Positions 28,240 to 32,005 of a stretch of 32,005 bases of DNA are shown here, piece after piece. This DNA is from Actinomycetota bacterium (GTDB lineage Bacteria; Actinomycetota; JAICYB01), in NCBI GenBank assembly GCA_035536535.1, contig DATLNZ010000088.1:1-32005 (forward strand), written 5' to 3'. The notes under the pieces are model-generated. The model saw only the letters and a program-made list of their open reading frames with translations. It had not been told where the DNA came from and did no database searches. Numbering within the stretch: the stretch's first letter is position 1; each line of letters opens with the position of its first letter. Position numbers and translations under genes: made by a program.

Positions 28240-28971
28240 TCAGCAGCCGAAGGTGCTATCGGTCGGGCCAACCTCGAAAACCTCGAATGAGGGGTCCCGC
28301 TGGATTGTGTCTACGCATTCTCTCGATCCGCCGACAAAGGTGGATGTGTAGTCGAGATCGGAGGCAACGAACCACGACCGGTCGGAGGGCCACCACATGT
28401 TGGGAGGCACCCACCATTCGTGCCCTCCCTGGGGTGCCTCAAAGTGAAATGAACCGATCGCCCCCATAGGGCCTCGAAACAAGACGCAGGGCCGGTACAG
28501 ATGGACTCTGGGCATCGAGGAGTAGCGAACGGACGTGGGGCCGTAACCCTCCCACAGAGCGAACACGCAGTCCTCCGGGGTCCTCGTGAACGACTCGAGA
28601 AGCTCGACCAGGCGCAGGGTCTGCTTCTCGTCGAGGGCATGTGCTGGTCGCTCGTGAGCCGGACGATCAACCCAACCAGCGGCCTCCTCAAAGGAAATCA
28701 ACGGGTGCATCTTGGCCTTTGTCCGCTTGGCCAAAGTTTCCCAGCGAATTTCCTCCCAGCGATCCTCTTCCAATGAGATCCGGTGCAAGATCCGTAGATA
28801 AGCCTCGAATACCGGAGGCACCAGACTGCTCACCGTCGGCTCGCTCTCTGGCCCAACTTCCGACAACGTCAGCCGGCTGGCCACCGATGGCTCTGCCACC
28901 CACGTGCCCTCTGGCGGGACAACGTCCTTCCTCAAGAACCCCCTCCCGGTCGAGCCGTATAGGGCTTGCAC
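28240..28971 (-). CDS. Uncharacterised actinobacterial protein
   Basis: 243 residues, soluble, rich in Trp and Pro. Recognisable blocks are GRGFLRKDVVPPEGTWVAEP near the start, VFEAYLRILHRI, CVFALWEGYG, RVHLYRPCVLFRGP and a C-terminal HEWWVPPNMWWPSDRSWFVA followed by DLDYTSTFVGGS. This pattern recurs in uncharacterised proteins of Actinobacteria, often annotated only as hypothetical; no catalytic motif is evident. The last block, with an aromatic cluster and an Asp pair, may be a ligand-binding face. Base composition is less GC-rich than neighbours, suggesting transfer. The GTG start coincides with a perfect palindrome. No ribosome binding site is clear. Confidence 0.75.
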   Translation of the reverse strand: MQALYGSTGRGFLRKDVVPPEGTWVAEPSVASRLTLSEVGPESEPTVSSLVPPVFEAYLRILHRISLEEDRWEEIRWETLAKRTKAKMHPLISFEEAAGWVDRPAHERPAHALDEKQTLRLVELLESFTRTPEDCVFALWEGYGPTSVRYSSMPRVHLYRPCVLFRGPMGAIGSFHFEAPQGGHEWWVPPNMWWPSDRSWFVASDLDYTSTFVGGSRECVDTIQRDPSFEVFEVGPTDSTFGC

Positions 28972-28982
28972 TTATGCATAAG
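28971..28982. promoter_or_regulatory. Perfect 12-bp palindrome CTTATGCATAAG at a gene start
   Basis: CTTATGCATAAG is its own reverse complement and abuts (by one base) the GTG start of the uncharacterised 243-residue protein. An AT-rich palindrome of this length stands out in such GC-rich DNA and sits where a repressor would block transcription or translation. It may be an operator; the regulator is not evident nearby. Confidence 0.4.
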
Positions 28983-29120
28983 GAGCAACGGGACTCCTGT
29001 CCAACAGTGAATCCCGTCCGAGGGAATCTGTCGCACCAGCCGAGGCGCCGTGCTCGACGGGGAGTTCGCCAGCGGGACCCAGAACCCCACCACCGGGGGC
29101 GTGGGGAGTGGCGTGAGGGA
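28983..29120. other. Non-coding intergenic stretch
   Basis: Part of the 321-bp region between divergent genes. I see no convincing start codon with a ribosome binding site and no tRNA cloverleaf. A short CCCCAC (29085-29090)/GTGGGG (29101-29106) stem lies at the end. Confidence 0.5.
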
Positions 29121-29215
29121 GCGGTGGGGGGAGGGTGCCGGGCAGGGAGGGCGTGGCCAATGAGCGAGGCGCGAAGCGGCCGCGACGGAGGCGCCCGGTG
29201 CCCTCCCCCCACCGC
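29121..29215. repeat. Inverted-repeat element with 22-bp arms (MITE/REP-like)
   Basis: Arm 29121-29142 and arm 29194-29215 are inverted copies differing only at two adjacent positions, where the RNA would form U-G and G-U wobbles, so a transcript would pair over all 22 positions. Inside lies a second stem, CGTGGCC (29152-29158) with GGCCGCG (29178-29184). No clear target-site duplication flanks it. It may be a small palindromic mobile element, a structured RNA, or a terminator-like insulator. The left arm also holds a G-quadruplex motif. Confidence 0.65.
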
Positions 29216-29257
29216 GACGCACCAAACGCAACCACCTCAACCCCCCCCCAACCCCAG

Positions 29258-29286
29258 TTGCCCCCCACCACAGCCACCAGTACGTT
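29258..29286 (+). promoter_or_regulatory. Promoter of the cyclase/AAA/TPR gene
   Basis: TTGCCC (29258-29263), a 17-bp spacer, and TACGTT (29281-29286) give the best sigma-70-type promoter in the window. The -10 ends 6 nt before ATG 29293, placing the transcript start at or next to the ATG; no Shine-Dalgarno is present, so translation is probably leaderless. The -35 is embedded in a C-rich tract that is a G-quadruplex motif on the other strand. Confidence 0.55.
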
Positions 29287-29292
29287 CACCCC

Positions 29293-32005
29293 ATGCCCGG
29301 ACAGATCTGTGCCTCGTGCCGCCACGACAACCCCGCCGACTCCCGCTTCTGCGGCGAGTGCGGCTCCCGCCTGGGCGCCGGGCCTTCCTGTCCGGGCTGC
29401 GGCACCCCCTATGCGGCCGGACAGAGGTTCTGCAACGAGTGCGGACGCAGCCTGACGGCGCAACCGGCCCCCGCCAGCTACACGCCGCCGCACCTCGCGC
29501 AGAAGATCCTCACCTCGCGCAGCGCGATGGTCGGCGAGCGCAAGCAGGTGACCGTGCTGTTCACCGACATCAAAGGGTTCACCCGCCTGGCGCAGGAAGT
29601 CGGCATCGAAGAGCTCCACCGGATCATGGACGACTTCTTCGCGCTGGCCCTGCAGAGCGTCTCGCGCTACGAGGGGACCATCAACCAGTACGCCGGCGAC
29701 GGGATCATGGCTCTGTTCGGCGCCCCCATCGCGCACGAGGACCATGCCAGCCGCGCCTGCTTCGCGGCGCTCCACCTCGCCGAGGCACTGGACCGCTACG
29801 CCCGAGACCTGCGGCGCGACAAGGGGCTTTCGTTCACGGTCCGAATGGGGGTCAACTCCGGAGAGGTCGTCGTCGGAGCCATCGGCGACGACCTGCGCCT
29901 GGACTACACCGCGGCCGGCAACACGGTCATCCTCGCCCGCCGCATGGAGGAGCTGGCCGACCCGGGCAGCATCTTCGTGACGTCGGAGACCGCGGCTCTC
30001 GTGGAGGGCTACGTAGGCCTGGACGACCTCGGCCATTTCAACATCCGCGACGTCCCGCGGCCGGTGCATGCGTACAAGCTGTCGGCCGGAGGCGACGTCC
30101 GGACAAAGCTTCAGCGGGCCCGCGCACGCGGATTCTCCAGGTTCGTCGGACGCGAGGCCGAGGTTGAGGATCTCGAGTCCGCCTTGGAGCGCGCCGTCGA
30201 GGGGTCCGGCCAGGTCGTCGGCGTCGTCGGGGAACCCGGCGTGGGCAAGAGCCGCCTCTGCTACGAGGTCGTCCAGCGGGCCAGGGCCCGGGGGCTGAAG
30301 ATCATCGAGGCGCAGGCCATACCGCACGGCAAGGCCGTGCCTTTCGCGCCGGTGCTCGAGCTGCTGCGCGGGTACTTCGGCATCGCCGACCTCGACGACC
30401 CGGTTGCCGCGCGGCAGAAGATCGCCGGAAGCCTTTTGCTTCTGGGGGAGCGCTTTCGGGAGGTCCTGCCGCTGGTATTCGACTTTCTCGGCGTCCCGGA
30501 CCCCAACCTGCCGGCCCCCCACGCACCGGGAGAGGTCCGGCACCGCCAGCTTTCGGGGGTCCTAGGACAGCTGGTGCGCGCGCGCAGCGACCGCGGTCCG
30601 GCGGTCGTCCTGCTCGAGGACGTGCACTGGCTGGACCCGGGCAGCGAAACGTTCATCGAGCAGCTGGTGGACGCCGTCCCCGGCACCCGGACGCTTCTGC
30701 TCGTGAACTTCCGTCCGGACCTGTACAGCGCGCCGTGGCTGAGACACCAGGTCCAGCTGCGGCCTCTTGGACCGGAAGCGATCGTGCAGATGCTCATCGA
30801 CAGGCTGGGCAACGACCCGTCGCTCGACGGGCTGCCGGAGCACATCCAGGTGCGCAGCGGCGGCAATCCCTTCTTTGCCGAGGAGCTCGTCCAGGCGCTG
30901 GTGGACTCGGAAGCCCTGGTCGGATCCTGGGGCTCGTACAAGCTCGTGGCGCCGGTGGATCACACCGCTCTGCCGGCCACCGTCCAGGCCGTGCTGTCGG
31001 CGCGCATCGACCGGCTGGAGGAAAGGGAACGATGGGTGCTGCGGGCGGCTTCGGTCATCGGGCGCAAGTTCTCCGAGTCCGTGCTGCGCAACATCTGCGA
31101 CCTCGACGACCACGAGCTCGCGTCCTCGCTGGACATCCTGCGCCGCGCTGAGTTCGTCCACGAGCGCGGGCCCGGCGATTTCTCCTTCCGCCACCGGCTG
31201 ACGCAGGAGGTTGCCTACAGGTCGCAGCTCACCGAGCCCCGCGCCCGGCTGCACGCAGCCGCCGCAAGGACGATCGAGGACCTCGAGCCCGACCGCCTGG
31301 ACGAGCTCGCGGCGCTTCTCGCCTACCACTGGACCGAGGCCGGGGAGCCGGCGCTTGCCGCGCGGTGGCAGACCAGAGCCGCGGCCTGGGCGGGCGTCAA
31401 CGACCCTGAGGCGTCGCTGCGTCACTGGTGGGCGGCACGCGAGCAGATGTCGGCCATTCCCGAAGGGCAGGAGCGCGACAGGCTGGCCCTTGACTCCTGC
31501 GTCGGCATCCTCAACTCCGGCTCCCGGCTGGGTGTGTCGGTTGAGCAGTCGGCGCAGCTGCTCGAAGAAGGACGCCTGCTCGCCGAACGGCTTGGCGACA
31601 CCAGGTCGCTGGCCCAGCTGCTGCTCGTCTACGCCCGGGCACGGGGACAGGCGGGGGCCGTCGAGGAGGCCCTTGAGCACAGCCTCGCCGCCGCCACCCT
31701 GGCCGAGCAGACGGGACTGCGGGGGCTGCGCATGGCCGCGGCCGTGAACCTCAGCATCTGGCACTGGCAGATGGGCCGGCTGGACGAGTCGGTGCAGGCG
31801 GCCGACTCCGCGCTCGTACGGGTGCCGAGCGACCTGCGAATCGGATCCGAGCACCTGGGGTCCAGCCCGTACATCTGGCAGGTGATGCAGCGCGGACGCG
31901 TCCTGCCGTGGCTGGGCAGGTTCGCTGAGGCAGAGCGCGAGCTGGACCGGGCGGTCGGCCTCGCGACCGAGCACGAGGAGATGGAGATCCTGTGCTGGGC
32001 TCACC
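29293..32005 (+). CDS. Zinc-ribbon / class III nucleotide cyclase / AAA ATPase / TPR signalling protein (3' end beyond window)
   Basis: 904 codons are visible and the frame is open at the window edge. Two zinc ribbons use C6/C9/C20/C23 and C33/C36/C47/C50. A class III cyclase domain (about 80-265) has metal Asps D92 (VTVLFTDIKGFT) and D136 (QYAGDGIMALFGAP). The substrate-selecting Lys position is Gln (Q132), and the usual catalytic Asn in VNLAARL is Ile (I213 in NTVILARRM), while the following Arg is kept (R217). An STAND/AAA_16 ATPase follows with Walker A GEPGVGKSRL (about 313-322) and Walker B PAVVLLEDVHWLD (about 436-448). Beyond about 640 are TPR-like helices. Such proteins are soluble signal integrators common in Actinobacteria. 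cAMP synthesis is uncertain because of the substitution. Confidence 0.9.
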   Translation, partial: MPGQICASCRHDNPADSRFCGECGSRLGAGPSCPGCGTPYAAGQRFCNECGRSLTAQPAPASYTPPHLAQKILTSRSAMVGERKQVTVLFTDIKGFTRLAQEVGIEELHRIMDDFFALALQSVSRYEGTINQYAGDGIMALFGAPIAHEDHASRACFAALHLAEALDRYARDLRRDKGLSFTVRMGVNSGEVVVGAIGDDLRLDYTAAGNTVILARRMEELADPGSIFVTSETAALVEGYVGLDDLGHFNIRDVPRPVHAYKLSAGGDVRTKLQRARARGFSRFVGREAEVEDLESALERAVEGSGQVVGVVGEPGVGKSRLCYEVVQRARARGLKIIEAQAIPHGKAVPFAPVLELLRGYFGIADLDDPVAARQKIAGSLLLLGERFREVLPLVFDFLGVPDPNLPAPHAPGEVRHRQLSGVLGQLVRARSDRGPAVVLLEDVHWLDPGSETFIEQLVDAVPGTRTLLLVNFRPDLYSAPWLRHQVQLRPLGPEAIVQMLIDRLGNDPSLDGLPEHIQVRSGGNPFFAEELVQALVDSEALVGSWGSYKLVAPVDHTALPATVQAVLSARIDRLEERERWVLRAASVIGRKFSESVLRNICDLDDHELASSLDILRRAEFVHERGPGDFSFRHRLTQEVAYRSQLTEPRARLHAAAARTIEDLEPDRLDELAALLAYHWTEAGEPALAARWQTRAAAWAGVNDPEASLRHWWAAREQMSAIPEGQERDRLALDSCVGILNSGSRLGVSVEQSAQLLEEGRLLAERLGDTRSLAQLLLVYARARGQAGAVEEALEHSLAAATLAEQTGLRGLRMAAAVNLSIWHWQMGRLDESVQAADSALVRVPSDLRIGSEHLGSSPYIWQVMQRGRVLPWLGRFAEAERELDRAVGLATEHEEMEILCWAH

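Follow-up and report, generated by a model that had tools for sequence, protein, structure and literature searches.

The hairpin described here lies in a 32,005-nt window, by which we mean the whole stretch of DNA that was analysed; it is the entire contig C88 of a 2.62-Mb assembly in 205 contigs. The hairpin occupies the gap between two divergent reading frames. One of these (28240-28971) has no Pfam match, and the other begins about 78 nt beyond the hairpin and encodes a cyclase-like protein (29293-32004, truncated by the contig end) that opens with a double zinc ribbon and continues into a guanylate-cyclase and then an AAA ATPase domain. The parts of the element are as follows, with "copies" referring to related hairpins elsewhere in the same assembly.

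29121..29143, + strand: 5' arm of the outer stem, 23 bp; its sequence varies among copies
29144..29165, + strand: 5' half of the family-1 core, AGGGAGGGCGTGGCCAATGAGC; the copies in contigs C43 and C84 are identical save at two positions
29164..29183, + strand: inner hairpin with apex GCGAAGC; varies among copies
29182..29191, + strand: 3' half of the family-1 core, GCGACGGAGG; also in the copies of C43, C84, C13 and C31
29193..29215, + strand: 3' arm of the outer stem; pairs with 29121-29143, including two G·U pairs
29216..29233, + strand: A/C-rich 3' tail, GACGCACCAAACGCAACC, of a type common to the family-2 copies of this genome; that it forms part of the element is suggestive only

A first-pass annotation of this DNA had described an inverted repeat with 22-bp arms. 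The repeat itself is borne out: in the region 29081-29260 the best 23-bp arm match reaches 21 of 23 positions, compared with a maximum of 18 in 1000 dinucleotide shuffles, none of which was as good. The arms are slightly longer than proposed, at 23 nt each, and are 91% complementary across a 49-nt spacer, with 21 Watson-Crick and two G·U pairs. This is the strongest inverted repeat of the window, across which only two overlapping-size tiles attain 21 arm matches; its run-length score of 15 against a shuffle maximum of 14 is a weak test that the 23-bp arm comparison supersedes. The minimum free energy of the hairpin (29111-29225) is -81.2 kcal/mol (z = -5.8), and none of 200 shuffles was equally stable. 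The two arm positions that depart from Watson-Crick pairing are neighbours and both form G·U pairs on the plus strand, just as had been noted, and the second, inner stem that the annotation reported is present as well, with one G-G mismatch in the window copy and a regular helix in the other two complete copies. The window has no match above a curated family threshold in Rfam. Near the hairpin, a scan covering one promoter type returned no promoter-like match, and neither strand of 28900-29400 holds a terminator-like site.

The annotation had also suggested a multi-copy repeat of the REP or MITE kind, and the sequence is indeed not single-copy. At least five copies of what we call family 1 are found in the assembly: that of the window, two further complete ones (C43 and C84), a 3' half in C13 and another half at the edge of C31. 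This number is a minimum, the assembly being fragmented and broken within the C31 copy. The three complete copies share a core in which GGGAGGGCGTGGCCAAnGAGC is followed by a variable inner hairpin and then by GCGACGGAGG. The outer arms have a different sequence in each of them and yet remain complementary: in this small sample of three, 86 of 87 alignment cells hold standard pairs and 12 of 29 pairs have changed on both sides, a level of covariation reached by none of 500 shuffles. A U·G pair at alignment columns 15 and 80 is identical in all three while its neighbours change. Outside its own genome, family 1 was not recovered. The core as an exact pattern had no match in the GTDB genomes and IMG/VR, a set from which this genome is possibly absent; a covariance model searched against 396 Actinomycetota genomes matched the genome of origin only, the other matches (best E about 0.02) looking like chance. 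The 5' half of the core, with two mismatches allowed, found nothing better than two mismatches among 60 relatives, and a plasmid collection gave no match. With family 1 found in one assembly only, no gain or loss at the strain level was seen.

The positions of these copies bear on both function and mobility. The C84 copy lies about 60 nt before dinB, and the C43 copy sits inside dnaE2, antisense to the gene but in frame and free of stop codons, where it corresponds to residues 496-528 of the reading frame. Compared with the 80%-identical gene of genome G001, this dnaE2 has about 90 extra residues (486-575), and the element lies within them. The inserted segment exceeds the element in length, falls in a region where homologs differ in length, and is not a clean empty site. 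The 3' half in C13 directly adjoins an element of a second family, and the C31 half begins exactly at the contig edge (1-31), as if the assembly had broken at the hairpin; the sequence beyond it, to judge by eye, may be the 3' portion of an RNase P RNA gene. As a side observation, replication and repair genes recur as neighbours of these hairpins, among them dnaE2, dinB, a dnaE-like gene and a position near dnaB; the dnaE-like case is a family-2 copy in C181, 34 nt past the end of a gene (L115:934-2397) that resembles dnaE by eye. The siting upstream of the cyclase gene is as the first-pass annotation had it, but the link looks incidental, because the genes that flank or contain the other copies are unrelated. 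The hairpin is not a one-off regulatory RNA of the cyclase gene.

A short, palindromic, dispersed and non-coding element of this sort invites comparison with a conventional MITE, that is, a deletion derivative of an insertion sequence that a DDE transposase moves by recognising its terminal inverted repeats. A MITE is defined by conserved terminal repeats and a target-site duplication, whereas here it is the terminal arms that differ and the middle that is conserved, the reverse of what a MITE would show. The target duplications that the annotation had raised were looked for in the flanks of the family-1 copies, where no direct repeat exceeds the background. We therefore regard a MITE as very unlikely.

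A second family came to light through the 3' tail of the C84 copy, ACAACAGACGCC, which recurs at the foot of a different hairpin in C23; this is the one copy pair in which the two families share a 12-nt tail. In the same genome family 2 numbers at least eight copies, full or partial (contigs C13, C23, C51, C90 and C181), and G001 has one. Its core, GCGAGTTCCGCAGC…GCGAGGACTGC, folds into a helix of 8 bp that contains a U·G pair and a bulged A, and being invariant this helix has no covariation support of its own. The exact core pattern occurs in 26 stretches of one-per-species genomes, in Adlercreutzia, Enterorhabdus and Enorma and in Bdellovibrio, Omnitrophota and Proteobacteria assemblies. In most of these stretches the fold includes a long outer stem whose sequence is particular to that stretch and which reaches about 40 bp in Bdellovibrio. 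A family-2 covariance model matched 27 of the 396 Actinomycetota genomes, three of them with at least 12 copies. Copies occur in both orientations and are mostly intergenic, including some that, judging by eye from the sequence, fall within the pheS-pheT and gatA-gatB gaps. Rfam gave no match for any of 18 family-2 loci, the core sequence returned only unrelated hits among the matches listed when paper text was searched, and nothing specific was found in the literature on such repeats in Coriobacteriia or Eggerthella. In genome G141, some copies (L201, L202, L203 and L205) have almost no inner hairpin (GCAGCGAAGCGAGG) and may be regarded as a minimal form of the element. The hairpin-repeat searches also returned a single viral match, at locus L146.

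The two families share a genome, a build, the strand that carries the wobbles and a type of flank, and in both cores we discern by eye a CC·GG pair and a short loop beside the inner hairpin. They differ in the sequence of the core and in distribution, family 2 being widespread and family 1 confined to one assembly. The two probably form one group; because family 1 gives no profile match to the family-2 model, their common origin is something that we infer.

The outer stems of both families allow us to ask which strand folds. Among transition-type departures from Watson-Crick pairing in 63 outer stems, G·U on the core strand occurs 72 times and A·C, which corresponds to G·U on the opposite strand, only 10 times. 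Core-strand G·U is the commoner kind in 39 elements and the opposite kind in one. Split by lineage, the counts lean the same way each time: 34:5 in Adlercreutzia, 16:4 in the Eggerthella group and 22:1 among the remaining stems. Since copies related to one another do not count as independent observations, the p-value by elements, 7e-11, is too small, but every group shows the bias in this direction. Because the wobbles favour the core strand 72:10, preservation of one folded strand, the core strand, is supported. The annotation had taken the two wobbles of the window copy as a sign that an RNA hairpin is maintained; the preference for one strand stands, and the identification of that strand as RNA is not established by it.

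The orientation of family-2 copies sheds further light on the nature of this strand. In Eggerthellaceae and Enorma, an antisense orientation was read for about 16 of 20 gaps between co-directional genes, three doubtful frames being excluded. Among the flanking genes, a separate set of 20 picked by hand, and thus non-random, all have a Pfam match and 17 end at the 3' side of the element. These counts cover family 2, family 1 having too few copies for an equivalent test. Most family-2 copies being antisense to the adjoining gene, the mRNA of that gene is usually not the strand whose pairing is preserved. This has consequences for the possibility that the hairpin is a transcription terminator or a stabiliser of mRNA ends. 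Family-2 copies often start 30-80 nt past a stop codon (20-80 nt overall), as such a role would predict, but the would-be mRNA strand is then the one that carries the A·C mismatches. Moreover, the copies of the window and of C84 precede genes, others separate pheS from pheT and gatA from gatB (by eye), and the window copy lacks the T-run that directly follows the hairpin of an intrinsic terminator. A terminator or stabiliser is accordingly as improbable, in our view, as a MITE.

A function in the 3'-UTR is less favoured by the orientation data than either single-stranded DNA or an antisense RNA of its own. Because most family-2 copies are antisense to the gene ending beside them, an intermediate of single-stranded DNA accounts for the folded strand no less well than RNA. 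If RNA were the folded form, the element could be a multi-copy structured non-coding RNA, transcribed from the plus strand, whose core internal loop binds a protein or ligand. The strand-specific G·U preference agrees with this idea, as does the combination of an invariant internal loop with variable stems that is familiar from known structured RNAs. The lack of an Rfam match, the unrelated neighbours and the lack of a promoter-like match of the type scanned near the window copy speak against it, and so does orientation, the C43 copy being antisense within dnaE2 and the family-2 copies mostly antisense to adjoining genes. We consider a structured RNA unlikely, if still the most plausible of the alternatives weighed here.

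Our preferred reading, to which we assign a probability of roughly 60%, is that the 95-bp hairpin represents a non-autonomous mobile repeat, palindromic and interspersed, that is similar to REP and Rickettsia palindromic elements (RPEs) and handled as a folded single strand. The copies are dispersed, one is an insertion relative to G001, the core is conserved and the pairing is strand-specific. We suspect that the core strand folds as a single strand, either as DNA during replication or transposition or as RNA, and that an enzyme encoded elsewhere may recognise the core internal loop and so spread the copies; any effects on neighbouring genes would be incidental. Selection for folding could maintain the complementarity of the arms, as could template-switch correction of inverted repeats; the two may also act together. 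Template switching can keep inverted-repeat arms complementary without selection (PMC8794818), but it is expected to erase wobbles, so the wobble bias still needs another cause. A site bound as duplex DNA by a nucleoid protein, gyrase or similar, and dispersed by selection instead of transposition, might account for the intergenic bias and for the exact conservation of the family-2 core across unrelated phyla; it has no need of long complementary arms or of wobbles on one strand, and the dnaE2 copy is an insertion in length. We judge such a site extremely improbable.

More tentatively, and with somewhat less than even confidence, we propose that the two families represent different core types within a single super-family of long-hairpin mobile repeats, hitherto undescribed and present in several phyla. 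Its members would move as a folded single strand through the action of some enzyme distinct from the known REP-associated Y1 transposase; that enzyme would recognise the invariant internal loop and leave the flanking stems free to change as long as they stay paired. The Y1_Tnp domain (PF01797) has no match in the fragmented assembly of the genome of origin or in G001, in a search that produced control matches in 5 of its 14 genomes, and it likewise has no match in 14 of 26 genomes in the family-2 carrier search, among them three of those richest in copies (G173, G259 and G363). Mobilisation by a RAYT or another Y1 enzyme is thus not supported.

Among known systems, the element may work like a REP or an RPE. 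REPs (the GTAG and CGTC super-families, with REPIN and BIME arrangements) are dispersed palindromes, mostly intergenic near the 3' ends of genes and sometimes within genes including DnaE2, and their stems, of 5-13 bp (GTAG) or 8-9 bp (CGTC), contain G·T pairs and are accompanied by an unpaired tag (PMC3733652). Dispersal, intergenic bias, insertion into DnaE2 and G·T or G·U pairs in the stems are thus common to both. Unlike REPs, the elements described here have an outer stem of 22-24 bp (22-23 bp in family 1) and their conserved part in the middle, and the copies of this genome have no constant GTAG or CGTC tag at their feet. GACG, the complement of CGTC, does lie 0-8 nt from the 3' foot in three family-1 copies, but its distance is not fixed and it is absent in most family-2 copies. 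Because the tag and stem length differ and the Y1 enzyme associated with GTAG REPs was not found, we do not file the element as a REP, although this is the nearest described kind. RPEs are palindromes of about 100-150 bp that can sit in frame within genes (PMC10969869). The C43 copy in dnaE2 does the same, and is the only one of the five known family-1 copies to lie inside a gene; the likeness considered here concerns build and siting. The ends of IS200/IS605 elements and other single-strand hairpin substrates are recognised as one folded strand with mismatches or bulges, a feature that the present elements would share, in genomes that often lack the Y1 transposase associated with REPs. With a family-2 core common to Actinomycetota, Bdellovibrio and Omnitrophota assemblies, these elements provide a tangible system in which to ask what agent copies hairpins of this sort and by what means long arms remain complementary, and the family-2 alignment and covariance model could be used to annotate copies, for instance in gut Adlercreutzia and Enorma. 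Known REPs are short and tagged, one kind having a known transposase, whereas the elements described here are longer, are centred on a core and prefer one folded strand.
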